IMG/VR virus record: IMGVR_UViG_3300025128_000046
Location: 1-56,026 of that record
DNA length: 56,026 nt
Source of the DNA: a virus
Strand: one strand, 5' to 3'
Shown: in pieces, positions 12,085-40,383 of the stretch
How positions within the stretch are numbered: position 1 is the first letter of the stretch
How the letters are laid out: every line of letters begins with the position of its first letter
Made by a program: the position numbers and the translations under genes
The notes under the pieces: generated by a model
Seen by the model: the letters and a program-made list of their open reading frames with translations, nothing else
What the model was told of the DNA's origin: nothing
The model's database searches: none

Positions 12085-12264
12085 TTAAGAGGTAGCCCTC
12101 TTAGTACTTTTTAGAGGTTTAGGCATTTCATAAGAAAAATCATCCCACTCATTGAGTGCGCTTCTCATGCTACGTGGACCCCAAACATCTTTTTTAAATG
12201 GATTACCAAAAGTTTTTGATGTATCCTTTACATGCTCTGGATAACCCTTACCTTTTTTCATCAT
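12085..12264 (-). CDS. Hypothetical 59-residue protein
   Basis: ATG at 12262-12264 overlaps the portal stop by one base (TAATG) and the stop is at 12085-12087. Begins MMKKGKGYPEHVKD, with a central WGPRSMRSALNEWDD and a basic end. The tight coupling to portal argues that it is real. Function unknown. Confidence 0.65.
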   Translation of the reverse strand: MMKKGKGYPEHVKDTSKTFGNPFKKDVWGPRSMRSALNEWDDFSYEMPKPLKSTKRATS

Positions 12265-14738
12265 TAGTCTTCTCCTTTTTTCATTTCTTCAACAGCTAAA
12301 CGTGACAATGTATTTAGCTTTGTTTCTTCTACATCTTTATCATCTTTCATTTCTTCAATCTTAATCTTAGCAAGATTATTCATTGCAGTAATTTCTTTCT
12401 TGGATTCTCTATCAGCTTCAGCTTTCTCACGTTTAAACTTATCAGTAGCACCAGACTCAAGCATATCCAATATTTGTTCATTCTCTTCAAGTTCAAGTTT
12501 CTTTGTCTTGAGTTCAAGTTCAGCAGCCGTAACAGCCGTATCAGATTGTAGTTTCTGTTGTTGTAACTTAACCTTCTCTTGCTCAAGCATAACAAGCTGT
12601 TGTTCTGGTGTTGGAGGTGGTGGCTGTTGATTGGCTTGCATAACTTTTTGTGCAGCCTCTGCCATAGCCATTTCAATAACAGAAGGTTGACCTTGTTGTT
12701 CTGCTGGAACTTGTTGCATCATTTGTTCTGTAACACCACTCATTTGTTCTTGATACTTCAGTACAGAATGTTCTTGTATATTAGATTCAAGTACAGGTTT
12801 AATCCTAGCCATAATAGGATTAGCACCATTGGCAGGGTCTTGTAAATAAGCCATCTTAACTTGTATATGAGCATCGTGGTTCTGTGCAGGAAAAGCTGCA
12901 ATAGGTAAACCTTTTGTAACAGCCATGATATCAGATACAGGGTCAAGCGGTTGTGGCTCAATCTTGGGTGGCAATATTTGCTCTAGGTTAGGCATGTTGG
13001 CTGCATTGAGAATAGTCCTGTTAAGTTCCTCAATGTTAAACATACCTGGTGGCGACTGCTGTGCCATTTGCAGAGCCATGTTTGCCAACATCATACGATG
13101 GGCATTAGAAGGAATATTAGGGTCAGAAACAGGTACAATATCCACTCGTCCATCAAAGTCAGCTTTAAATATATTTCTATCTTCAAACGGTACTTCATAA
13201 GGATATTCATTAGGTAAATAATCATGGTCTATCTGCGCCAGTATTCTAAACTCATCCCTTTGTGACTTATGTAATCTTTTATGAATTGCAGAGAAAAACT
13301 TACTTGAAGCTTCTAGCAATGCCATTGTTGTTCCAACGGGTCCATAGGAGGCAGCATCAGAGATAACTTGCTCAGTACTGTCTGCAAACTTCTGACCAGC
13401 AGCAGTTACAAACCCAAGCATCTGGAAGAGCGTTGAGGAAGGCTCTTTATAGGGCAGGGGAACTATAGCCCTAGATAAATCAATACCAGTTGCTTCGACC
13501 TCCTTGAACTCGCCAGGAGCGATTGGTTCATTATCACCAACCATCCTTACTCCCTTTGCCTTAAAACCGCCTGGTAAATTGGCGAACTGTCCAGCGTCTA
13601 TGAGGGAGCGCATCGCAGCAGTTGCCGACATGGTGAGATTACCAAGGAAATGGATAAGGCCCAATCCATAGAATCCAAAACCAGGTACAAACCTATAGTG
13701 AACGAAATGGCTTCGCTTCTCTTTATTCGGGTCATCCTGCTCGTAGTTTCTACGAATACTTAAAACTTGTCTTGACTGTTCCTCTACAGTTACAATGTAT
13801 GGACAAGCAACACCTTCTTCTTCTAACTCAAGATAACAGTGTTGCTCCAGTAATACATATTGTGGGTCACTATCATATGATGGAGATATACCCAAAATAT
13901 TATCTATCTTAGTTGCAAAACCACTAGAAGAAAGCTGTGATGGAGAAGGTAGGTCTACATCTTTGTAAACACCTGCTCTAATATCCTGTTGTAATTCTAC
14001 AGGACTTTTATATATCACATGTGTATAGCGGTCTGCATTTCTTAAATCAGTAGCATAGTAAGATACATAGAACTGGTCTATAGGTATAAACTCTGATACT
14101 GGTCTTTTAAAAGTTGAGCTATAATAAATCTTTTTAAATGCCGAACCTATAAGAGGGAGATGAAAAAGCATTCTTTCAAATTCATCAAAGTACTCTGGCA
14201 TCTGTTCTGTAAGCTGATAGTTCATAAAATTCTGAACCCTGTTGGCTTGCATTTCTTTCTCTGGTGTTGCGGCACCAAGAATGTTTGCCTTTACAGGGCC
14301 ACCAGAAGGAAATAATTCCTGTGTAGCTTTTGATTGAAACTTAACAGCCGATTCAATTAATAGCGGATGTACAGCCGTACAAGCTCCCTGAAATGGTTCT
14401 GAACCTTCTTCCAGCTTTAGACCAAGTAGGTCAAAGCCTCTTTCAAACATAGACTCCCACTCACCTCTGCTATCTTTATCTGCATTATAATTTTCAATAA
14501 CATCTGTAGATATACCTTGCAGGTCTTCTTCATCTAGGTCTTCACTGAGGTCACCATACCATTCAGATACTTCTTCTGAAGCTTCCATCTCTACAGACTC
14601 TGAAGAAAAGTCTACAATAACACCACCATCAGAAGGGTCAATCTCAATAGACACATTGGACTGTTCTTCAGGGACCATTGCAATAATATTAGTCTCCGCT
14701 TCAGGAATTATATCAAAAGGATTACGTTCTGTTGCCAT
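12264..14738 (-). CDS. Portal protein
   Basis: 824 residues, in the size class of P22/podovirus portals. The N-terminal 90 residues are acidic. Then comes the portal core: DSRGEWESMFERGFDLLGLK, the segment around FQGACTAVHPLLIESAVKFQ, and FERMLFHLPLIGSAFKKIYY. From about residue 680 to the end it is a long Gln/Glu coiled coil, typical of the portal crown or barrel helices. The portal forms the dodecameric DNA channel and docks the terminase. It lies between the repeat protein and the small GroES-region genes with one-base overlaps on both sides. Confidence 0.88.
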   Translation of the reverse strand: MATERNPFDIIPEAETNIIAMVPEEQSNVSIEIDPSDGGVIVDFSSESVEMEASEEVSEWYGDLSEDLDEEDLQGISTDVIENYNADKDSRGEWESMFERGFDLLGLKLEEGSEPFQGACTAVHPLLIESAVKFQSKATQELFPSGGPVKANILGAATPEKEMQANRVQNFMNYQLTEQMPEYFDEFERMLFHLPLIGSAFKKIYYSSTFKRPVSEFIPIDQFYVSYYATDLRNADRYTHVIYKSPVELQQDIRAGVYKDVDLPSPSQLSSSGFATKIDNILGISPSYDSDPQYVLLEQHCYLELEEEGVACPYIVTVEEQSRQVLSIRRNYEQDDPNKEKRSHFVHYRFVPGFGFYGLGLIHFLGNLTMSATAAMRSLIDAGQFANLPGGFKAKGVRMVGDNEPIAPGEFKEVEATGIDLSRAIVPLPYKEPSSTLFQMLGFVTAAGQKFADSTEQVISDAASYGPVGTTMALLEASSKFFSAIHKRLHKSQRDEFRILAQIDHDYLPNEYPYEVPFEDRNIFKADFDGRVDIVPVSDPNIPSNAHRMMLANMALQMAQQSPPGMFNIEELNRTILNAANMPNLEQILPPKIEPQPLDPVSDIMAVTKGLPIAAFPAQNHDAHIQVKMAYLQDPANGANPIMARIKPVLESNIQEHSVLKYQEQMSGVTEQMMQQVPAEQQGQPSVIEMAMAEAAQKVMQANQQPPPPTPEQQLVMLEQEKVKLQQQKLQSDTAVTAAELELKTKKLELEENEQILDMLESGATDKFKREKAEADRESKKEITAMNNLAKIKIEEMKDDKDVEETKLNTLSRLAVEEMKKGED

Positions 14739-18203: not shown

Positions 18204-19748
18204 TCAGAAGGTCCAATAAGTTTTTTTCTTCTCTGTTACTTCATCATCATAATGTGGGTCATCGGGGTGTACCATATGCCAAGACTCCTTCATATAGTGT
18301 ATAGCCATTGTCATGGCATCCACTTGGTCATCGTGAGCCGCATTGGGAAATCTTAGTAATTCTTCAATCAGTTCATCTGACCACTTCTTGTTATTGGGTA
18401 TCCACATTCTACCAGCTTCTATGATAGGTGAGGCCGCATATACTCTTGACACCTTATCTCTATCTGGATTGTACTCCAGTACAGGTAGTCCACCTCTACG
18501 CATATCCTGTATAAGTGATTGCCCACTGGCCTTCTTCTCCACCATACATACATCTGGCTGGTGTTCATTGTAGAGTTTCTGTGCCAGCTTTCTCAGTTCT
18601 GGATATTCAAACCTACCTCTAATGTTTCCCAACAATATCATGTGCGGTACAAAATCCTCATATCCAATCTCATCCTGATTGTACATGGAGAATATACCCC
18701 ATGTCTGTATGACACTGTAATCAGCCGTGGTCTTGGTAGAGAATGCCGTATCATAGGTTTGAACTATGAAATCACATGTTGGCGGCTCCTCATATTCCCA
18801 ATACTTGAGCCATTTCTTTTTGATGATACCACCCTCTTCTGGAGTGGGGTCTTGCATGTAGAGAGCATTCCAGTATCGGCTACCATTACTTGCTTTAATC
18901 TCGCTCTCGTCCATTCTCAGGATATCATCGCTCTTCCACTCTGGAAAATAGCTGGAGCCTACAGGGAGTCCCAAGAGTTCTGACGCATCATCGTCCACCC
19001 ACGCAGGTATTCTAATAACTTCCCACGGGATTGTTTCAAACTCTCCCATATTCTCCTGTTGTTTTAGCAACCAGCCACATAGGTCATCATAGTGGTAGCG
19101 TGTATTGATAATAACTATAGAGCCGTTGGGCATAATACGGGTTCTTAGTCCAGCAGGGTACCACTCCTTGATATATCTCCTACCTGATGCACTGATTGCG
19201 TCCTCTTCAGACATCACATCATCCAATATAGCAATATGTGCGCCCCTACCAGCTATTTGAGAGCGTACACCAGCAGCATAGTACGTCCCATTCTGGTTTG
19301 TCTTCCACTTACCAGCGGCTCTTACGTCGCTCCTTAAAGAGACTCCTTTAAATATCTTTTGAAATTCTTCTGTATTCACCACATCTCTAACAGACCGTCC
19401 AAAGTCACTGGATAACTGGTCACTATGGGATACAGTCAGTATCTCATGTTCAGGGTTCCTTCCAATATACCAAGCAGGAAAGAGTTTAGAACAGATAACA
19501 GACTTAGAAGACCGTGGTGGAAGAAATACCATCAGCCGTTTTATCTTACCAGACTCTAAATCCTTTAGTTTATCTGATATAACTTCGATATGTCTACCCA
19601 TCCTCCAATCAGATACCAGCATTGGAGCCATCATCCTAACAAATGTAATGAAATCTGTTTTAGATTGTTGATTTACTTTTTGGTCTAACAATCCTTTTAG
19701 ATTAATAAAGGGTTGTAGATACTCATTAGTGCTTTCTAGTATATTCAT
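18204..19748 (-). CDS. Terminase large subunit
   Basis: 514 residues from the ATG at 19748; a GTG-initiated form 15 bases longer would place its start inside the -10 box. The ATPase carries PPRSSKS (about 77-83) as the Walker A-like motif and HIAILDDV as Walker B. The nuclease carries QTYDTAF (Asp), MVEKKASG (Glu) and AAHDDQVDAM (Asp), the RNase H-like acid set of phage terminases. The protein cuts concatemers and pumps DNA through the portal. The start codon sits six bases after a perfect TATAAT, so the mRNA is probably leaderless. The small subunit is far away on the other strand (41855-42307). Confidence 0.93.
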   Translation of the reverse strand: MNILESTNEYLQPFINLKGLLDQKVNQQSKTDFITFVRMMAPMLVSDWRMGRHIEVISDKLKDLESGKIKRLMVFLPPRSSKSVICSKLFPAWYIGRNPEHEILTVSHSDQLSSDFGRSVRDVVNTEEFQKIFKGVSLRSDVRAAGKWKTNQNGTYYAAGVRSQIAGRGAHIAILDDVMSEEDAISASGRRYIKEWYPAGLRTRIMPNGSIVIINTRYHYDDLCGWLLKQQENMGEFETIPWEVIRIPAWVDDDASELLGLPVGSSYFPEWKSDDILRMDESEIKASNGSRYWNALYMQDPTPEEGGIIKKKWLKYWEYEEPPTCDFIVQTYDTAFSTKTTADYSVIQTWGIFSMYNQDEIGYEDFVPHMILLGNIRGRFEYPELRKLAQKLYNEHQPDVCMVEKKASGQSLIQDMRRGGLPVLEYNPDRDKVSRVYAASPIIEAGRMWIPNNKKWSDELIEELLRFPNAAHDDQVDAMTMAIHYMKESWHMVHPDDPHYDDEVTEKKKTYWTF

Positions 19749-19754
19749 AGTACT

Positions 19755-19783
19755 ATTATACACTAAAAAATACTAATATGCAA
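19755..19783 (-). promoter_or_regulatory. Late promoter P1, probably leaderless terminase mRNA
   Basis: Minus-strand TTGCAT, 17 bases, TATAAT, then AGTACT and the terminase ATG. Transcription normally begins about seven bases after the -10, which is the A of the ATG. No ribosome site exists upstream. Confidence 0.8.
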
Positions 19784-19912: not shown

Positions 19913-19996
19913 TATATAGCATGCGTGTGTGTTTTTTCCCCCTACCCCCAATGTTCTTGTTCTGTTCTGCCCCAAATGACTCCGTAGGAGTCCCAT

Positions 19997-20048
19997 CTAA
20001 CTCTGTAGAAAACCCTGAAGTTCTTACGAAGGGTTTTCAAAGAGTTAG
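19997..20048 (+). promoter_or_regulatory. Two-tier hairpin, loop related to the early hairpin family
   Basis: Outer arms CTAACTCT/AGAGTTAG and inner arms AAAACCCT/AGGGTTTT close the loop GAAGTTCTTACGA, which shares GTTCTTACGA with the loop at 20532-20565. The stem sequence is entirely different, as expected if loop and fold matter. Confidence 0.6.
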
Positions 20049-20284
20049 TAGGAACTTTTCAGCCAATTCTGTTGCAAATTTGTCACAGTTCCTGTGGAAA
20101 TCATCCGAAGGATGGGCAGAATGGCACAATGTCTACTCTGTAGAAACTTGGCAGAATATGTTAAGCCCTTGAGATTGTTATACAATCTAACACATTGCCT
20201 CACATTGAGCAACTACGTTGCCATGACGAGATGCAAAGCATCTTGACGAGGCTTGACAAAGCCAAGACGATATACTAATTAATA

Positions 20285-20315
20285 TCTTTAGTAGAGTATC
20301 TTACGATACTAAAGA
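20285..20315 (+). promoter_or_regulatory. Early hairpin H1
   Basis: TCTTTAGTA / TACTAAAGA (9 bp, extendable to 15 with one mismatch through the flanking TTAAT sequences) around the loop GAGTATCTTACGA. It precedes the first small early gene by 45 bases. Confidence 0.7.
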
Positions 20316-20360
20316 GATTAATTAGATTATAACTTCAACCAACCAACTGGAGAACTTGTT

Positions 20361-20525
20361 ATGGATATTACCCAATTACAATTTGAAATTGACCAATTTC
20401 TAAACGGTGAGTTTGATGTATTCACAAGCTTGTGTGGCAACGGTATCGACCTTCATAACCGCTTTGGTTATGTTGCAACATACGACGACGCGGAAGATGT
20501 TTGCCACGAGCTTTTCAAAAATTAA
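20361..20525 (+). CDS. Hypothetical early protein, 54 residues
   Basis: ATG 20361 to TAA 20523-20525; begins MDITQLQFEIDQFLNGEFD and ends EDVCHELFKN. Preceded by GGAGAACTTGTT as ribosome site and followed directly by hairpin H2. First gene of the early arm. Acidic; no family recognised. Confidence 0.65.
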   Translation: MDITQLQFEIDQFLNGEFDVFTSLCGNGIDLHNRFGYVATYDDAEDVCHELFKN

Positions 20526-20531
20526 TTAAAA

Positions 20532-20565
20532 GCCCTGTAGTAGAGTTCTTACGATACTACAGGGC
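20532..20565 (+). promoter_or_regulatory. Early hairpin H2
   Basis: GCCCTGTAGTA / TACTACAGGGC (11 bp, perfect) around GAGTTCTTACGA. TTAATTAA flanks both sides, and the right flank runs directly into the ribosome site AAAGGAGA of the next gene. Confidence 0.75.
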
Positions 20566-20586
20566 GTTAATTAAAGGAGAAGACTA

Positions 20587-20751
20587 ATGAGTGATTTATA
20601 TAACGATTATCTCTTTGCAAAAGAGGAAGCTAAAGCTTGTGGACAAGAATTTGTTAGCTATGAAGAATGGATAGGTGAAGAAAGTCCAAAAGAAAAAGCA
20701 CAACATAAACAACAGCTTATCTATGATAATGATGAGTATGATTTATATTAA
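20587..20751 (+). CDS. Hypothetical early protein, 54 residues
   Basis: ATG 20587, TAA 20749-20751; begins MSDLYNDYLFAKEEAKACGQ, ends DNDEYDLY. Strongly acidic C-terminus. Ribosome site AAAGGAGA sits eight bases before the start, right after H2. Small acidic early proteins are often host-takeover factors; that is inference. Confidence 0.65.
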   Translation: MSDLYNDYLFAKEEAKACGQEFVSYEEWIGEESPKEKAQHKQQLIYDNDEYDLY

Positions 20752-20772
20752 TTAAATATAGGAGAATTTGTT

Positions 20773-20997
20773 ATGATAGACATGGCCCCAGAAGTTTACA
20801 ACTTCAGAGCAGCAGCTACACGGTCAGCCCTGAAACTTTGGACAAAGCATGGCATAAAGCCAAATCGCTGGACTAAAATGAGAGACTTGCTAGATATAGC
20901 AACAGTTTACACTGGAGTTACTTATAAGATAAGTAAGAAAGACCAGCTTAGAGCTTTGGAAGATTTAACAAAATGGATTGAGGAATGCAAAGCATGA
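20773..20997 (+). CDS. Hypothetical early protein, 74 residues
   Basis: Basic helical protein (NFRAAATRSALKLWTKHGIK, later ALEDLTKWIEECKA) with a good ribosome site (TAGGAGAA). Its stop overlaps the next start (ATGA). A small nucleic-acid-binding protein is possible; family not recognised. Confidence 0.65.
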   Translation: MIDMAPEVYNFRAAATRSALKLWTKHGIKPNRWTKMRDLLDIATVYTGVTYKISKKDQLRALEDLTKWIEECKA

Positions 20998-21182
20998 TTG
21001 AAAAAATAGCAGTAACATTAGGAATATTAATTGGGATATTCCTTATATTGAGTGGAACATTGCTACCCTTTGACCTCACTTTACAAGTGTTATTGAGCTT
21101 GATGGGAATGGTAATTATAGTAACTTGCACAGTCTACTTAGACTATGTGATATGTAACAACAAATACTTTGGAGATGGCTAA
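20994..21182 (+). CDS. Small two-helix membrane protein
   Basis: 62 residues with two hydrophobic segments (VTLGILIGIFLILSGTLLPF and LLSLMGMVIIVTCTVYLDY). I chose the ATG at 20994, nine bases after AGGA and overlapping the previous stop, over the ATG at 20985, which has no space for a ribosome site. Function unknown; an early inner-membrane protein. Confidence 0.65.
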   Translation: MIEKIAVTLGILIGIFLILSGTLLPFDLTLQVLLSLMGMVIIVTCTVYLDYVICNNKYFGDG

Positions 21183-21184
21183 TT

Positions 21185-21222
21185 GATGCCCATAGTAGAA
21201 CTTTAGTGATACTATGGGTATC
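21185..21222 (+). promoter_or_regulatory. Early hairpin H3
   Basis: CCCATAGTA / TACTATGGG (9 bp, 13 with flanking GATG/TATC including one G-U pair) around the loop GAACTTTAGTGA. It lies 67 bases before the next start codon. Confidence 0.7.
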
Positions 21223-21288
21223 TATTAGGTATTAACAGCCTAACCCAAGCCAGTGGGGTTTGACATTGGCAACTAATCGGAGATTAAA

Positions 21289-21501
21289 ATGGAAAAAGTA
21301 TTTGATGTTTACCAAGGTAAAAAGTGGATAGAGCTAAAGCAAAAGGAAAAGGGTGACAGGTCACTTTTTGATAAAGCTGTTGAAGCTGGCAAAGCCATTC
21401 GTATTCGTGGACTAGCCAATAATGGCAAGGAGTTCTTCAAAGTCATTAAGAATGCTGACGTATTACCAGAAGGTGAGCCACTGTCGCAACGGGCAGTGTA
21501 G
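21289..21501 (+). CDS. Hypothetical early protein, 70 residues
   Basis: Basic, compact (VFDVYQGKKWIELKQKEKGD, then ANNGKEFFKVIKNADVLPEG), with ribosome site CGGAGA. Could be a small beta-sheet domain. No family recognised. Confidence 0.65.
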   Translation: MEKVFDVYQGKKWIELKQKEKGDRSLFDKAVEAGKAIRIRGLANNGKEFFKVIKNADVLPEGEPLSQRAV

Positions 21502-21522
21502 TTGCTATATATTAATTAAATG

Positions 21523-21554
21523 CCCTGTAGTAGAACTATAGTGATACTACAGGG
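21523..21554 (+). promoter_or_regulatory. Early hairpin H4
   Basis: CCCTGTAGTA / TACTACAGGG around GAACTATAGTGA. The stem is like H2, the loop like H3. TTAATTAA on the left and ATTAATTAAAGGAGA on the right lead into the next gene. Confidence 0.75.
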
Positions 21555-21576
21555 TATTAATTAAAGGAGATGAATA

Positions 21577-21735
21577 ATGGACAGCACAGTATTAGAAGTT
21601 TATGTGAGAACCTTTTTTACAACACTTAAAAGTGATGAGCCAGAATTGTACAACAAAACCATGCGTTTATTCAAAGCTGGTAAAGGTGACGTAGTACGAG
21701 ACATCATGTGGGAAGTTTTCAGCAAAGGAAAATAA
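21577..21735 (+). CDS. Hypothetical early protein, 52 residues
   Basis: ATG 21577, TAA 21733-21735; MDSTVLEVYVRTFFTTL then FKAGKGDVVRDIMWEVFSK. Helical, near neutral. Ribosome site AAAGGAGA eight bases upstream, behind H4. Confidence 0.65.
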   Translation: MDSTVLEVYVRTFFTTLKSDEPELYNKTMRLFKAGKGDVVRDIMWEVFSKGK

Positions 21736-21736
21736 A

Positions 21737-22330
21737 ATGTTTGCAGAACATCAACCTCTTATTAGAGAATATGCCATGCAATCAGCAGATAATACCGCTG
21801 ACGTTGGCTATTTTGTATTGGCAACAATACAACAACAGTTTAGCGTAGTGCGCGATAGCTATTGGGATATGAAAGACAAAGGGCTTGATAGTAAGTTTGC
21901 ATGGGGTAGTAAAGCCGCTGGTATGAAACGTATACAGGCAACAAAAGAAAGTATATATAAAGACATGTTTGGATATTCTCAATCCAATGCAGAACTTTTA
22001 CTAGCCATCGCGTCTATACCTGGACTGGGATTAGTAAAAGCTGGTTTTTATATTCAGCTATGCACTGGATACATGGGTTGCCTAGATGTACACAACCTAA
22101 AAAGATTTGGACTAGACAGAAAAACCTTTCTAGTACCAGAAAGTTTGAGTTGGGAGACAGCTTTAGGAAAAGCTAATATGTATTTGGAAACTATAGAAAA
22201 ATGTGGTGGCAGTGAGTACCTATGGGATAGCTGGTGCGACTACATAGCCGCGCTGTATCCAAAGAAGTTTAAAAATGGTGAGCATGTATCGCAATGCCAC
22301 GTTGATTATTTAATTAATAGGAAGGATTAA
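21737..22330 (+). CDS. Helix-hairpin-helix protein
   Basis: 197 residues. Residues 84-127 (LLLAIASIPGLGLVKAGFYI then GYMGCLDVHNLKRFGL) have the IPGLGLVKA pattern of a helix-hairpin-helix DNA-binding motif followed by a conserved GC-DVHN segment seen in related phage proteins. No catalytic Lys/Asp pair of a HhH-GPD glycosylase can be confidently named. Probably binds DNA; role in replication or repair is inferred. Confidence 0.6.
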   Translation: MFAEHQPLIREYAMQSADNTADVGYFVLATIQQQFSVVRDSYWDMKDKGLDSKFAWGSKAAGMKRIQATKESIYKDMFGYSQSNAELLLAIASIPGLGLVKAGFYIQLCTGYMGCLDVHNLKRFGLDRKTFLVPESLSWETALGKANMYLETIEKCGGSEYLWDSWCDYIAALYPKKFKNGEHVSQCHVDYLINRKD

Positions 22331-22333
22331 ACA

Positions 22334-22549
22334 ATGAGCAACAAAATAACTTTTATGGAAAAAGAAATTAAAAATAAAATGGTAAGAATAAAATGGAATA
22401 GTACCACTTTAAAAAGCGTAGGTACATACATAGACGATGAAGAGAGGCCATTTTTATTTACTACATCAAGAGTTGAAATTGGCCCCAATACCGCGTATGA
22501 TATAGCAGAAGCACACTTGAAAGCAGTAGAAGACCTACTGTTAATTTAA
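22334..22549 (+). CDS. Hypothetical early protein, 71 residues
   Basis: Begins MSNKITFMEKEIKNKMVRIK and has a beta-rich middle; the stop at 22547-22549 touches the base of hairpin H5. No family recognised. Confidence 0.6.
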   Translation: MSNKITFMEKEIKNKMVRIKWNSTTLKSVGTYIDDEERPFLFTTSRVEIGPNTAYDIAEAHLKAVEDLLLI

Positions 22550-22584
22550 GTAACTTAGTAGAGTATCTTACGATACTAAGTTAC
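22550..22584 (+). promoter_or_regulatory. Early hairpin H5
   Basis: GTAACTTAGTA / TACTAAGTTAC (11 bp, perfect) around GAGTATCTTACGA, the same loop as H1 with a different outer stem. GTTAATTAAGGAGA follows directly and serves the next gene. Confidence 0.75.
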
Positions 22585-22603
22585 GTTAATTAAGGAGATG
22601 CCG

Positions 22604-22753
22604 ATGAGCAACCAACACAATGACGCTATCAAGGAAATGTTATTTGAAGTAGCCATGACTACATTAGTGAGCAACGGTGAGCCAGATAATGAAAAGACAG
22701 AGTTAAAAGCTATTAAAATTGTAGCCCAAGAATGGGAAAATTATGGAGACTAA
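22604..22753 (+). CDS. Hypothetical early protein, 49 residues
   Basis: ATG 22604, TAA 22751-22753; MSNQHNDAIKEMLFEVAMTT, acidic helical. Ribosome site AAGGAGA behind H5. Family not recognised. Confidence 0.65.
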   Translation: MSNQHNDAIKEMLFEVAMTTLVSNGEPDNEKTELKAIKIVAQEWENYGD

Positions 22754-23187: not shown

Positions 23188-23316
23188 GGTGTAAGGGGGT
23201 TTCTTTAGAGTAATGGTCCTTACACCTACCTCCTATGCTACCATTACTCTTGGTTGGGTGTTTGTTAAACTACTCACTACGTTATGGCCTTGTGCTGTAG
23301 CGTAGTGAGGCTTTTA
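23187..23316 (+). ncRNA. Structured 5' leader: pseudoknot-like pair of stems plus terminator-like hairpin
   Basis: Stem 1 pairs AGGTGTAAGG (23187-23196) with CCTTACACCT (23218-23227). Stem 2 pairs AGAGTAATGGT (23207-23217) with ACCATTACTCT (23240-23250). The stems interleave (5'1, 5'2, 3'1, 3'2) with no base between 5'2 and 3'1, the geometry of an H-type pseudoknot with coaxial stems; loops are 10 and 12 bases. If they cannot form together they are mutually exclusive hairpins, i.e. a switch. A small GTTT-GTT-AAAC hairpin follows (23260-23270), then CTCACTACG (23273-23281) with CGTAGTGAG (23301-23309) and GCTTTT, which looks like a terminator before the next gene. No known riboswitch consensus was matched. 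Confidence 0.65.
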
Positions 23317-23328
23317 AAAGGGAGAGAC

Positions 23329-23652
23329 ATGTACGGTTACGGACAAAGTTCACATACGAAAAGAACAAAAGAAACTGTTACTAATTTATTTAACAAAGGT
23401 TTAAGTGCAAGAGAAGTAGCTAAACAAGCTAACAAATTATGCAAGGATGATATTTTAAATCCACTTACTAAAAATGCTGTGATAGGTATAAGAAATAGGG
23501 CTGGACAATGTGTCATAAGAAATATAGTATATGGTACATACACCCCGCGAAATAAAACTGGGGGTTACGATAAGTCTCTAGCTTTTAATGAGCATAAACA
23601 AAGACTTACCTTAGTTGAAAGACAAAAGCAAAGATTGATGAGTGTATTATGA
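23329..23652 (+). CDS. GcrA-like HTH regulator
   Basis: 107 residues from the ATG at 23329, five bases after GGGAGAG; an upstream in-frame start at 23284 would lie inside the terminator-like hairpin and is rejected. Residues 12-55 (TVTNLFNKGLSAREVAKQAN then LTKNAVIGIRNRAG) match the N-terminal HTH of GcrA, the alphaproteobacterial cell-cycle regulator (consensus LW-GLSA-QIA..L...TRNAVIGKVHRLG), with a 9-11 residue insertion between the helices. The C-terminal sigma70-binding zinc region of GcrA is absent. It may act on phage or host transcription at methylated sites. A methyltransferase follows at 24383. Confidence 0.65.
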   Translation: MYGYGQSSHTKRTKETVTNLFNKGLSAREVAKQANKLCKDDILNPLTKNAVIGIRNRAGQCVIRNIVYGTYTPRNKTGGYDKSLAFNEHKQRLTLVERQKQRLMSVL

Positions 23653-24382: not shown

Positions 24383-25105
24383 ATGTGGGCTATACATAAC
24401 GAAGATTGTTTACAAACAATGAACAATATGTTTGGTGGTCAAGTCAAAGCTACCATCACATCACCACCATACAACATGAACCTACGTATTCGTAATGGTA
24501 AGTATTGTTCAAGACAAATAGTAGAAGAAGAATTTTCTACAAAGTATTCAGACTTCCCTGATAACTTACCAATAGAGGAATACAATAAACTACATACAGA
24601 AATACTAAGAGAATTACTAAGAGTAAGTGAATTAGTATTCTATAATGTACAAGTAGTTACAGGGTCAAAGAGGTCTATCTTTAAAATGATTGGTGAGTTT
24701 GCCAATAACCTCAAGGAGATTATCGTATGGGATAAGGGATATGCACCACCAGCTATGATGACGCAGGTCATGAATAGTGTCACAGAATTTATATTAGTAT
24801 TCGATAATGATTATCCTATTAGTAGAAAGTATAGAACAGGTAGGTTTGATAGAGGTACACTGGATAATATCTGGAGAGTTAAAAGGTCTAGTAAAAGTTT
24901 CGATGGTAACAAGGCTACGTTTCCAGAGGAGCTAGTAGAAAAAATAATTTTAAACTTTACAGATGAAGGTGATGTAGTGTATGACCCTTTCAGTGGCACA
25001 GGTACTACAGGAGTAGTAGCAAATAGATTAGGAAGAGAGTTTATAGGGAGTGAAATAAATAAAGAGCTTGTAAAAATTTCAAAGAAAAGGATTGAAGATG
25101 ACTGA
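24383..25105 (+). CDS. DNA methyltransferase (N4-cytosine/N6-adenine, beta-type order)
   Basis: 240 residues. Catalytic motif TSPPYN is at about 27-32 and the AdoMet-binding DPFSGTGTTG at about 201-210, with FIGSEIN just after; catalytic motif before AdoMet motif is the beta arrangement (PF01555 type). SPPY is more typical of N4-cytosine enzymes, but N6-adenine cannot be excluded. No restriction endonuclease is adjacent. It could protect phage DNA or tag sites for regulation together with the GcrA-like gene. Confidence 0.85.
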   Translation: MWAIHNEDCLQTMNNMFGGQVKATITSPPYNMNLRIRNGKYCSRQIVEEEFSTKYSDFPDNLPIEEYNKLHTEILRELLRVSELVFYNVQVVTGSKRSIFKMIGEFANNLKEIIVWDKGYAPPAMMTQVMNSVTEFILVFDNDYPISRKYRTGRFDRGTLDNIWRVKRSSKSFDGNKATFPEELVEKIILNFTDEGDVVYDPFSGTGTTGVVANRLGREFIGSEINKELVKISKKRIEDD

Positions 25106-35254: not shown

Positions 35255-35821
35255 ATGGAACTTACTGCTGAGATAGCTAGAGAATTATTAACTTACAATC
35301 CTGATACTGGTAAACTTTACTGGAAAGAAAGACCAGCAAAATATTTTAAAAATCCTAAATGGCATATGAAGTCTTGGAATAATAAATTTGCTGGTAAAGA
35401 AGCACTTACAGCCATTACTCGTAGAAAGTCTGGACAGATAGCTAGATTAGATGGTTTTGTGTTAAGAAAAAGGTATTCTACACATCGTATAGTATGGTTA
35501 ATATATTATGGTGAGTGGCCTAAAAATCAAATAGACCATATCAATCAAGACCCTACAGATAATAGAATTAAAAATCTTAGGGATGTGACTTGTAGTGAAA
35601 ATAATAAAAATAGAACATTACAAAATAATAGTACAACTGGTTATGCAGGTGTGAGTTTTTATAAACGACATAAAAAATATCGTGCAGAAATATATATTAA
35701 TAAAATTAAAAAACATTTAGGATATTATGACACTGTTGAAGAAGCAGCATCAGCTAGAGCAGTAGCAAATATTAATTACAACTTTCATCCTAATCATGGC
35801 AATCATAAAGTAACTGAATGA
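35255..35821 (+). CDS. HNH homing-type endonuclease with AP2 domain
   Basis: 188 residues. HRIVWLIYYGEWPKNQIDHI followed by NQDPTDNRIKNL and CSENNKN is the HNH nuclease core (about 74-125). TGYAGVSFYKRHKKYRAEIY to the end is an AP2 DNA-binding domain. It sits between nrdA and nrdB, the same location as the mobile endonuclease MobE in T4-type phages, so it is likely a selfish intergenic element. More A-rich than the flanking genes. Confidence 0.88.
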   Translation: MELTAEIARELLTYNPDTGKLYWKERPAKYFKNPKWHMKSWNNKFAGKEALTAITRRKSGQIARLDGFVLRKRYSTHRIVWLIYYGEWPKNQIDHINQDPTDNRIKNLRDVTCSENNKNRTLQNNSTTGYAGVSFYKRHKKYRAEIYINKIKKHLGYYDTVEEAASARAVANINYNFHPNHGNHKVTE

Positions 35822-37190: not shown

Positions 37191-37963
37191 GAAAGTCGCC
37201 AAATACAGTATACATAGGCTACGACCCAAAGGAAGACGTAGCTTACGAAGTTTTAAAGTTTACGATTGAGAGAATAGCCGTAGATAATGTACGTATTGTC
37301 CCTATCAAACGTGATGTTGTAGAGCGTATGGGTATGTATACACGGACATATGATACAGTTGATGGTCAGAACATTGACACTATTGATGGCAAGCCTTTCT
37401 CCAGTGAGTTTAGTTTCACGAGGTTCTTAGTACCAGCTATGAATATGTATGAAGGCTGGGCATTATACATGGACTGTGATATGTATCTACGTACTGATAT
37501 CAATGAACTGTTTGAAGAGTACAATACAGATTACTATCCATTATATTGCGTCAAGCATGACTATGCTCCAGGTGACGGTTATAAAATGGATGGACGTAAG
37601 CAAGAAAACTACCGTCGAAAGAACTGGTCTAGCCTTATGTTGTTCAACTGTAGCCATGAGCTTAATAAGAAGCTTACTCCTGAAGTTATTAATACAATGC
37701 CAGGTGGTTGGCTACATGGCTTTGAATGGTTGCCTGATAAAGACGGTGATATTGGAACTATACATCAAGAATGGAACTGGTTGGACAATCATTCACCAGA
37801 AGATATTAAAGCCAAGAACGTACACTTTACTACAGGTGGTCCTTGGTTTAAAGATTGGAAATGTGGCAGGGATATTGATGGTATGTATGCTTCAGAGTGG
37901 AATGGAGATTATACTTACCTTGCTGGTCATGGTAAGATAGAGCCTTTAGAATGGGAAAAATGA
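37187..37963 (+). CDS. GT-A-fold glycosyltransferase (GT8-like)
   Basis: 258 residues. Start VYIGYDPKEDVAYEVLKFTI and EFSFTRFLVP are typical of GT8-like folds; ALYMDCDMYLRTDI holds the DxD motif (Asp96, Asp98) that binds the metal-nucleotide sugar; HFTTGGPWFKDW near the end provides the late His. It probably transfers a sugar to host surface glycan, to a phage protein or to DNA; acceptor unknown. Followed by ATGA overlap with a multidomain partner. Confidence 0.8.
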   Translation: MRKSPNTVYIGYDPKEDVAYEVLKFTIERIAVDNVRIVPIKRDVVERMGMYTRTYDTVDGQNIDTIDGKPFSSEFSFTRFLVPAMNMYEGWALYMDCDMYLRTDINELFEEYNTDYYPLYCVKHDYAPGDGYKMDGRKQENYRRKNWSSLMLFNCSHELNKKLTPEVINTMPGGWLHGFEWLPDKDGDIGTIHQEWNWLDNHSPEDIKAKNVHFTTGGPWFKDWKCGRDIDGMYASEWNGDYTYLAGHGKIEPLEWEK

Positions 37964-40383
37964 GATATAAATTTGTAACATGTTTTAATGAGGAGTATCT
38001 ACAGAAGATGACTTCTCAGCTACTCAATCTTATGAGTAGTTCTTGGCAATCTTCTATTGATATTCATTGCTATTACTATGATATTGATATAAAAAATTAT
38101 TCTTTACCCAAAGCTAAGAACATTCATTATCATAATCTTGAAGAGATAGAAGACTTCAAAGCTTGCAGAGAGATTTGCAAGAAGCACGATGGTACAGAAG
38201 GTGGAGCAGTACAATACAATACTGCAATAGATGCCTATAACTTTGTACCAAAGGTCATAGCTCTGACAGAGACTGCATTTAATAATGGTAACTCTTGGTT
38301 GTTCTGGATAGATGCAGACACGATGTCCAAGAAGCTTATTAAAATAGCAGACCTTGATAAACTTCTACCAGAAAAACAAGAGAAGTGTGATATAGTAACC
38401 TTGACTAATGAAGAAGGTGGCTATGAATTTTTCTTACAGGGTTTTAATCTGTCACGCCAAACACCAGTAGATATGCTTGGTGATTTAAGAGGTGCTTATT
38501 TATCTAAAGAGTTTTTAAACTATCGTGAATGGCATGATGGTTTTCTCATGAATAGGTTGATGACTATCTACATGGCTCATGGTATGAGAGTGCATGAGGT
38601 CAGCTATGAAAACTCTATAGCAGGTGATATGTTTATTCATCTGCAGGGTAGTACTAATGTAGCTCTGCGTGACATGGATGGCAATCGTATGTTTGAATTA
38701 TCTGATGAAGAGGTATCACCTGATATACTTCCCAACAGATACAAGCAGCTTGCTGATGTCATACGGCTCTATAAACCAAAGACTATTCTTGAGACAGGCA
38801 CATGGAATGGAGGACGAGCTATTGAAATGTCTTTGGCTGCATTGGAGAACAGCGACTCAGTACATTACATAGGCTATGACCTGTTTGAAGATGCGACTAT
38901 GGAGACAGATGAAGAAGAGTTCAATGTTAAACCACACAATACATTAGCAGCCGTTGAGAAAAGGTTTGAAGAATTTGCTAATGTAATAAAAGAAAGAGAT
39001 GGTAAAACATTTACTTGGGAGTTATTTAAGGGTAATGTTCGTGATACATTGGATAGTGATTATGTAGGATTTAAATACAGAAGTGGAATAGATTATCCTT
39101 ATCTTGATATAAATGATAGAGTTGATTTTGCTATGATTGGTAGTGGTAATAGTATTAAAACTGTTGAACATGAATACAGTATGTTGAAAGACATACCAGT
39201 AGTAGTCATGGACCATTACTTCACAGAAGATGATGAAAGAATACCACCAGAACAATATCACGGAGTTAAACATGTATTTGATAAGATACCCACGAAGAAG
39301 GTCAATGCTGAAGAAACTACGAAGGATGGGTGGACTGTATTTGATGAGTCCGTTATCACTCGTAAGCATGTCTTGCCTTCTGGTGATACTGTTATTGGTG
39401 GTGGCCACACTCACCTGTGTTTGATTCTTAATAAAGAAGACCTTGTTGACTGTCCTGATGAACTAAAGAGAGTTCCTATTGTTGTACATCCAAGAGATTG
39501 TGTACCTCAAGACTTTATACAAGATAATATTAAAGCCAACATGGAACTTATTGATAAAGATAAGTGGATACATAAGCATCCTATTCATAAGGAATCAGCA
39601 ATACTTGTTTCTGCTGGTCCTTATCTTAATATCAAACAATTAAAACAGACCATTAAAGATTTAGGTAATCCAAAGGTAGTCTGTGTTAAACATTCTTATC
39701 CTACTCTTATTAAGAATGGTATCAAGCCTTGGTGTTGCGTTATCCTAGACCCTCGACCAATTACAGGTACGAGTACACATGGTATTATACGTAAAGATTT
39801 ATTTAAGAAGATAGATAAGAGTACCAAGTTTATGTTGGCATCCATGACAGACCCTTCTGTTACAGAGTTCTTGATTGAAAAAGACTGTGAGATATGGGGA
39901 TGGCATGCTTTTACTGATGGCCTTAGACAAGAAGATGAACAAGGCAAGTCAATAAAGAACCAACAGGTCAAGATAATGGAAGAGCTAAACATACCCAAGG
40001 GTGCTACTCTCATTACTGGTGGTACATGTGCTGCCATGAGAAGCATTGGTATGCTACATACAATGGGCTTCAGGGATGTACATCTCTTTGGTTTTGATTG
40101 CTGTATGGAAGAACCTACCAAAGAACAGAAGACAGAAACTACAGGAGATTTAGAAGGTGGTGAAACACCTAGACCCAAGTACTTCCAAGTAACAGTAGGT
40201 GACAACACATACTGGACTACAGGAGAGTTACTGGCTATGGCTCAAGACTGTGAGAAGATATTCTCTGATGAAGGTCTTGAAGGTGTCTTGACATATCATG
40301 GAGAAGATACTATGGTAGCTGACCTGTGGGAAATAAAAGAATCTCAAGAGAAACGTCCACAATTTAAGGGTTATTATGATTGA
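37960..40383 (+). CDS. Three-domain glycosyltransferase / Rossmann / MptE-like fusion
   Basis: 807 residues from ATG 37960 in the ATGA overlap. Residues 1-250: GT-A-like domain with SWLFWIDADTMSK, DxD at 118-120. Residues about 270-460: Rossmann fold like class I methyltransferases or cephalosporin-hydroxylase-like proteins (TILETGTWNGGRAIEM, YIGYDLF, VVVMDHYF). Residues about 545-807: MptE-like/DUF115 domain (SAILVSAGPYLNIKQLKQTI, KHSYPTLIKNGIKPW, LITGGTCAAMRSIGML), related to Maf flagellin glycosyltransferases. All three point to glycan or nucleotide-sugar chemistry. The combination in one chain is unusual to me. Confidence 0.7.
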   Translation: MRYKFVTCFNEEYLQKMTSQLLNLMSSSWQSSIDIHCYYYDIDIKNYSLPKAKNIHYHNLEEIEDFKACREICKKHDGTEGGAVQYNTAIDAYNFVPKVIALTETAFNNGNSWLFWIDADTMSKKLIKIADLDKLLPEKQEKCDIVTLTNEEGGYEFFLQGFNLSRQTPVDMLGDLRGAYLSKEFLNYREWHDGFLMNRLMTIYMAHGMRVHEVSYENSIAGDMFIHLQGSTNVALRDMDGNRMFELSDEEVSPDILPNRYKQLADVIRLYKPKTILETGTWNGGRAIEMSLAALENSDSVHYIGYDLFEDATMETDEEEFNVKPHNTLAAVEKRFEEFANVIKERDGKTFTWELFKGNVRDTLDSDYVGFKYRSGIDYPYLDINDRVDFAMIGSGNSIKTVEHEYSMLKDIPVVVMDHYFTEDDERIPPEQYHGVKHVFDKIPTKKVNAEETTKDGWTVFDESVITRKHVLPSGDTVIGGGHTHLCLILNKEDLVDCPDELKRVPIVVHPRDCVPQDFIQDNIKANMELIDKDKWIHKHPIHKESAILVSAGPYLNIKQLKQTIKDLGNPKVVCVKHSYPTLIKNGIKPWCCVILDPRPITGTSTHGIIRKDLFKKIDKSTKFMLASMTDPSVTEFLIEKDCEIWGWHAFTDGLRQEDEQGKSIKNQQVKIMEELNIPKGATLITGGTCAAMRSIGMLHTMGFRDVHLFGFDCCMEEPTKEQKTETTGDLEGGETPRPKYFQVTVGDNTYWTTGELLAMAQDCEKIFSDEGLEGVLTYHGEDTMVADLWEIKESQEKRPQFKGYYD

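Follow-up and report, generated by a model that had tools for sequence, protein, structure and literature searches.

The stretch of DNA studied here, hereafter the window, is the 56,026-base IMG/VR virus record IMGVR_UViG_3300025128_000046, and our subject is a family of hairpins that stand in front of its small early genes. The structural genes of the window, among them those of the terminase (18204-19763) and the portal protein (12264-14738), point to the left, and a right-pointing arm of early and replication genes, with a primase-helicase, a PolA-type polymerase and a ribonucleotide reductase, starts at about 20 kb. The closest isolates are distant ones, the pelagiphages HTVC103P/104P/115P for the polymerase (46% identity) and HTVC023P/027P for the terminase (about 40% identity). 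The window appears to represent a group of uncultured marine podovirus-like phages in which one hairpin family precedes dozens of unrelated early genes.

Five hairpins lie at the beginning of the early arm, on the + strand and at the places given by a first, sequence-only reading (Table 1). That reading had noted TAGTA/TACTA beside the loop, and indeed the pattern TAGTAGA-N6..9-GATACTA has exactly five matches in 56 kb, where shuffles expect 0.01, all of them on the + strand between 20.2 and 22.6 kb. The compensatory outer-stem pairs that it listed are correct, and, as it said, hairpins 2, 4 and 5 have TTAATTAA, a ribosome site and a start codon downstream. Its two types of loop were also correctly described, but the loops are not open: in all five copies the 12-13 nucleotides (nt) fold into GA, two or three base pairs (bp), a loop of 3-4 nt and GA, so that both types share a single structure, whose inner stem shows compensation (GU(A)/(U)AC in one, AC/GU in the other). 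Below the 11-bp stem the flanks provided by TTAATTAA pair together, which lengthens it by about 8 bp; a conserved A.G mismatch usually separates the two parts. RNAfold z-scores of the five range from -4.0 to -8.2, and no shuffle matched them.

The complete element, a stem-loop of about 20 bp between two early genes, consists of an A/T-rich base of 8 bp, in most cases with an A.G mismatch above it, 11 near-perfect pairs whose sequence is largely free, a GA/GA internal loop, two or three inner pairs and a loop of 3-4 nt. Tandem sheared G.A pairs might form in the GA/GA loop. A kink-turn was considered and rejected, the commonest form being a symmetric 2x2 GA/GA loop without a 3-nt bulge; 3x2 variants exist. 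One of these is a sixth, divergent hairpin of the window, AAAACCCU-GAA-GUUCUUAC-GA-AGGGUUUU (fold z -3.35), whose internal-loop variant recurs in other phages. It lies in an early leader of about 320 nt (19960-20285), noncoding and dense in small hairpins and GACGA spacers, which is possibly a structured noncoding RNA; extended to 20340, this leader has a fold z of -8.7. After the first family hairpin comes a CATCC-NNN-GGATG hairpin, which is also present in further phages of the group.

Table 1. Hairpins and associated small open reading frames (ORFs) of the early arm, in window coordinates; R1 is a covariance model of the hairpin.
Feature	Coordinates	Strand	Stem	Core	R1 score	Remarks
Hairpin 1	20272..20328	+	20285-20315	GAGTATCTTACGA, 20294-20306	66.9 bits on +, 30.5 on -	9-bp stem plus outer TAATTAA/TTAATTA arm; precedes ORF 20361-20525
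Hairpin 2	20521..20576	+	20532-20565	GAGTTCTTACGA, 20543-20554	68.9 bits	11-bp stem; overlaps stop of ORF 20361-20525, adjoins ribosome site of ORF 20587
Hairpin 3	21176..21231	+	21185-21222	GAACTTTAGTGA, 21198-21209	48.1 bits	Inner stem AC/GU; in leader of candidate regulator gene 21289-21501
Hairpin 4	21511..21566	+	21519-21558	GAACTATAGTGA, 21533-21544	56.4 bits	Inner stem AC/GU; precedes ORF 21577-21735
Hairpin 5	22539..22595	+	22550-22584	GAGTATCTTACGA, 22561-22573	67.8 bits	Occupies 48-nt gap between ORF 22334-22549 and ORF 22598-22753
Hairpin 6	20008..20038	+			17.9 bits, E 0.1	GAA/GA internal loop, GUUCUUAC tip; within CTAACTCT/AGAGTTAG; noncoding early leader
Acidic protein, 54 amino acids	20361..20525	+				Other gene family constantly behind hairpins
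Small early ORF	20587..20751	+				Behind hairpin 2
Candidate trans-acting regulator	21289..21501	+				Basic protein of 70 amino acids, new family, within hairpin array
Small early ORF	21577..21735	+				Behind hairpin 4
Small early ORF	22598..22753	+				Behind hairpin 5

Pairing, strand and position of the hairpins

A scan of IMG/VR with the exact pattern yielded 54 stretches; a second pattern scan gave mostly chance matches, which a stem filter took out. Within the retrieved loci, a structural scan found dozens of copies with unrelated stems and intact pairing. The sequence-only reading had named the lack of copies elsewhere, or stems broken without compensation, as evidence that would count against a selected structure; what was found is further copies with paired stems. 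We compared 53 stem families, of which those from L108 and L142 are probably due to chance. Counted downwards from the internal loop, the first nine positions hold Watson-Crick pairs almost exclusively. For positions 1-8 pairing had in part been a selection criterion, and position 9, free of any filter, is Watson-Crick in 52 of the 53. Positions 6-9 show three or four pair types each, with all four Watson-Crick pairs at position 6, and position 12 is typically A.G, followed by about eight A/T-rich pairs. A looser set of copies, keyed on the tip only, gave the same picture. Moreover, in an alignment (A2) of copies from IMG/VR contigs, 43 different but related sequences chosen by tip and upper stem and unselected in the lower stem, both sides had changed in 18 of 21 pairs and 88% of cells were paired; covariation reached 0.587 against 0.205 in shuffles (0/500 as high) and at most 0.192 with slid partners. 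The inner stem is compensated across copies as well (GUA/UAC, AC/GU, CUA/UAG). When the loci were scanned for loops common to different stems, the top strings were those of this hairpin family, with GAGTATCTTACGA first, on 30 stems.

The bias of non-Watson-Crick pairs points to the strand that folds. At stem positions 10-15, read on the sense strand, G.U occurs 16 times and A.C three times (p 0.002), and beyond the stem the two are balanced (29:29). Since a DNA palindrome or a template-strand hairpin gives no reason for such a bias, the paired molecule would be the sense strand, i.e. the mRNA. R1 also scores the sense strand above its palindromic complement (33.3 bits for the complement of hairpin 2). 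The upper nine pairs contain neither G.U nor A.C, which is unusual; the absence of G.U says that these pairs are held tightly. As a separate observation, an 11-bp stem GCTCCCTAGTA/TACTAGGGAGC with a family-like TAGTA/TACTA end and a start codon downstream occurs at position 13334 of locus L020 and, on the reverse strand, in L022/L023; its 15-nt apex, TGTTGTGGTATGATG, is unrelated.

The copies sit between co-directional early genes, and 82 of 97 have a ribosome site and a co-directional start codon downstream; in a reverse-direction control, 4 of 100 do. The ribosome site begins within 5 nt of the hairpin base in 45 of 115 cases and more than 25 nt away in 33. A record holds at most about eight R1 matches, after halving for the opposite strand of each palindrome. 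Thus, the proposal of the sequence-only reading that a selected RNA structure acts as a cis-element of early genes is borne out by the near-perfect compensation in the stems, the sense-strand polarity and the position before start codons. Termination, one of the roles that it had considered, has to be dropped: none of the copies has a run of T behind it, no family hairpin scored as a terminator, and the lone terminator-like site of the region, a chance site, lies away from the hairpins. A reading as sigma-70 promoters was rejected along with it, promoter-like sites being fewer than in shuffles (9, against 13.0) and hairpins 2 and 5 taking up the space from a stop codon to the next ribosome site.

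The genes behind the hairpins are diverse. In 137 distinct hairpin-gene pairs, 61 gene families stand downstream, most of them singletons; 12 of 93 identical hairpins precede more than one gene family, and 12 of 17 multi-member gene families are found behind more than one type of tip. Because the same hairpin precedes different genes and the same gene family has different hairpins, genes are exchanged at the hairpin. For instance, locus L006 has a gene start closely like that of ORF 20587-20751 behind a hairpin of the hairpin-4 type, a swap that we read as cassette exchange.

The claim that no described family resembles this element was upheld by Rfam 15, which matched nothing in the window at its gathering thresholds; with the limit relaxed to E 5 it returned just two chance microRNA matches, far below threshold. 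In INPHARED, megablast with the early arm found nothing and blastn with a hairpin only chance matches. R1 had no match in the examined parts of HTVC104P and of two of the terminase's nearest isolates, and the exact hairpin pattern was not found in the GTDB genomes.

A basic protein family associated with the hairpins

Comparison of genomes with and without the hairpin picked out ORF 21289-21501. Its family comprises basic proteins of 60-110 amino acids (median isoelectric point 9.26) with the motif W..(L/I)...G...F..A...G.PIR(V/I).HP.G.FKVI.N...LPEG. It is present in 43 loci, and the hairpin in 43/43 of these; no locus has the protein alone, and another 20, for the most part short fragments, have the hairpin but not the protein. 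Searching with the protein brought 20 new loci. R1 matched 18 of these, and in the other two a hairpin was seen upstream by eye; the one in L247 has a different tip. Of the contigs anchored by a terminase and reaching 2.5 kb or more into the early side, 32 in all, eight have both hairpin and protein, 24 have neither and none is mixed (Fisher 1e-7, kinship ignored). Two genomes without hairpin and without protein, G001 and G003, have a terminase and a polymerase closer to those of the window than several hairpin phages do.

In about 25 of 30 protein clusters a hairpin stands directly upstream of the gene of this family, usually 35-95 nt before its start. In leaders of the protein gene, e.g. those of L073, L232 and L244, CCGCCAAC recurs downstream of the hairpin and ahead of the ribosome site. 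AlphaFold predicts for ORF 21289-21501 a beta-beta-alpha-beta-beta order (predicted local distance difference test score 85.9, predicted template modelling score 0.68), and a second member has the same order. No worthwhile sequence match was found in Pfam, PHROG, NCBIfam or the Protein Data Bank (PDB), and the protein was not found in the GTDB genomes. The small basic protein is probably the switch that reads the hairpins.

A second family recurs behind the hairpins, the acidic family of ORF 20361-20525, which has an IDLHD motif and a median isoelectric point of 4.05 and almost always follows a hairpin. It is also present in L025, L040 and L042, which lack the hairpin of the window and have other tips; in L040/L042 such a tip precedes the family member. 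The close relatives L025/L045/L054 are likewise without the window hairpin and carry other stem-loops before small early genes, with the apices CCUC-NNN-GAGG or GCCUCUYUGA, e.g. AGTAATCCCTC-..CCTC-TTT-GAGG..-GAGGGATTACT. Behind their own hairpin they encode a very divergent possible relative of the candidate regulator (E 0.014-0.059, alone not significant). These loci weakly suggest that the class of hairpin and the protein may diversify together.

Proposed control of early genes and rival explanations

The explanation that we consider reasonably probable is that the hairpins are cis-acting RNA operators in early mRNA, served by a phage-encoded basic RNA-binding regulator under autogenous control. 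The early genes would be co-transcribed as a polycistronic early mRNA with the operators between them. The small basic protein (ORF 21289-21501 and relatives) would bind the apical module and set the translation or the stability of the downstream gene, and through its own hairpin it would also control its own gene, which would make the set an autogenous post-transcriptional regulon. As for the direction of control, we lean to repression once the protein accumulates, and control may act via mRNA processing or decay. Simple masking of the ribosome site is probably not the mode, because the distance between hairpin and site varies.

The nearest systems in way of working are the gene 43 operator and the RegA regulon, and on present evidence the element is a member of neither. 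Gene 43 of T4 and RB69, encoding DNA polymerase, has an autogenous operator, a hairpin that lies about 40 nt upstream of the start codon and is conserved in its apical bases (PMC3014915). A hairpin with conserved apex upstream of a phage start, and the encoded protein as regulator (here a candidate), are common to both; unlike gene 43 protein, which acts on its own mRNA, the present protein is an unrelated one of 60-110 amino acids that would bind before about 60 gene families. T4 RegA is a small translational repressor of about 30 mRNAs, whose targets have no clear structure and lie at or overlap the start codon (PMC3014915). Here too a small phage protein may serve many mRNAs, through structured elements of about 20 bp, unlike RegA targets, and usually upstream of the ribosome site. 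The profile of the regulator family had no sequence match in the PDB, and RegA was absent among the fold matches listed.

Several points weigh against operators read by this protein. The distance from hairpin base to ribosome site ranges from overlap to more than 100 nt, and the absence of G.U in the upper nine pairs would also fit a DNA hairpin or a nuclease of double-stranded RNA. The acidic family is as constant behind the hairpins as the basic one (29 vs 24 of the 137 pairs), and the regulator gene could merely be the favourite resident of the array. Moreover, the protein gene of two lineages, L057/L058 and L061/L091, has no hairpin of the family type directly upstream. Finally, the fold gave nothing above background in Foldseek and VIA-align (best Z 4.2). 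The C-terminal domain of lambda Ea22 was one candidate discarded there (Z 3.8, root-mean-square deviation 2.8 over 52 residues), as it was no better than unrelated rows.

The main rival, which we hold to be unlikely, is that host ribonuclease (RNase) III cuts the polycistronic early mRNA at the hairpins into stable mono- or dicistronic messages, with the protein unrelated or modulating. The early region of T7 has five RNase III sites in its polycistronic early mRNA (PMC4858673), and like these the present stem-loops are repeated between successive early genes and have a compatible length of about two helical turns, with an upper nine pairs free of G.U. RNase III does not need, however, an apex whose sequence hardly changes over about 30 different stems, nor a strict co-occurrence with one protein family, two features that set the hairpins apart from the T7 sites; many early genes, furthermore, have no hairpin. 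Processing and control by the protein could also be combined.

That the hairpins serve chiefly for recombination, or as cassette boundaries at which small early genes are shuffled, regulation being secondary, seems improbable to us. The diversity of genes behind them and the exchange of hairpins and tip types described above are what such elements would leave, yet any repeated element would show this shuffling, and recombination requires sequence identity, whereas most stems differ while their pairing persists. In T4-type phages, PeSL cassettes of an early promoter and a stem-loop, reportedly described by Arbiol et al. in 2010, are said to combine a sigma-70-like promoter with a terminator. 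They resemble the present elements as repeated stem-loops among small hypervariable early genes that are exchanged there; in our case neither sigma-70 promoter nor terminator was found, and it is the pairing, not the stem sequence, that is kept. A promoter of another kind than sigma-70 may lie near the hairpins.

Slightly less probable still is a DNA element of the N4 type, an early promoter extruded as a hairpin and read by a virion RNA polymerase. N4 early promoters are template-strand hairpins in which some bases are conserved and other stem positions may vary in sequence provided that they stay paired (PMC4496689), and our copies share this design and the location before genes of the early region. 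The excess of G.U over A.C favours the sense strand, however, and the stems are long where those of N4 are short. No match to an RNA polymerase, a giant protein in N4, was found among the large proteins scanned, though a very divergent one could escape, and the elements are often squeezed in, with a stop codon on one side and a ribosome site immediately on the other, which leaves scant room for a transcription start. Least of all do we expect that another factor reads the hairpin, either a host RNA-binding protein or the acidic family, with the basic protein a passenger: the acidic family is equally constant behind the hairpins and occurs with other tips in L025, L040 and L042, but it is unlike a nucleic-acid binder in charge and is found in those three loci without this hairpin, as the basic family never is, and the hairpin pattern is absent from the GTDB genomes searched.

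Among these explanations we retain operators read by the basic protein. The wider claim of an undescribed regulon is more tentative: a diversifying hairpin operator before about 60 unrelated early gene families, a new beta-beta-alpha-beta-beta RNA-binding family that controls itself, and lineage-specific tips are together plausible rather than probable.

Genome context and significance

Other genes of the window deserve mention. The early arm encodes a GcrA-like protein (23284-23652), whose Pfam match of E 2e-4 misses the cut-off, and an N6/N4-type (adenine-type) DNA methylase (24383-25105), a pair that recalls alphaproteobacterial cell-cycle regulators. Together they suggest, without proof, an alphaproteobacterial host. 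An HNH endonuclease gene (35255-35821) lies between both ribonucleotide reductase subunit genes, and a protein of 810 amino acids with an MptE-like (6-hydroxymethylpterin diphosphokinase) domain (37951-40383) is kept across the phage group.

What is new here is the hairpin-associated basic protein family, which, like the GA/GA internal structure, the sequence-only reading had missed. Early genes of phages mostly encode unnamed host-takeover proteins, and post-transcriptional control of whole sets of them is known for few phages. A hairpin that marks early genes is thus a handle for finding such genes in bulk. If the regulon is real, it would offer a natural set of RNA-protein pairs and early genes in plug-in cassettes, each with its own operator. 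A hairpin and a protein that diversify together would serve as a test case of RNA-protein co-evolution, and such pairs might be a source of orthogonal small RNA-binding tools.

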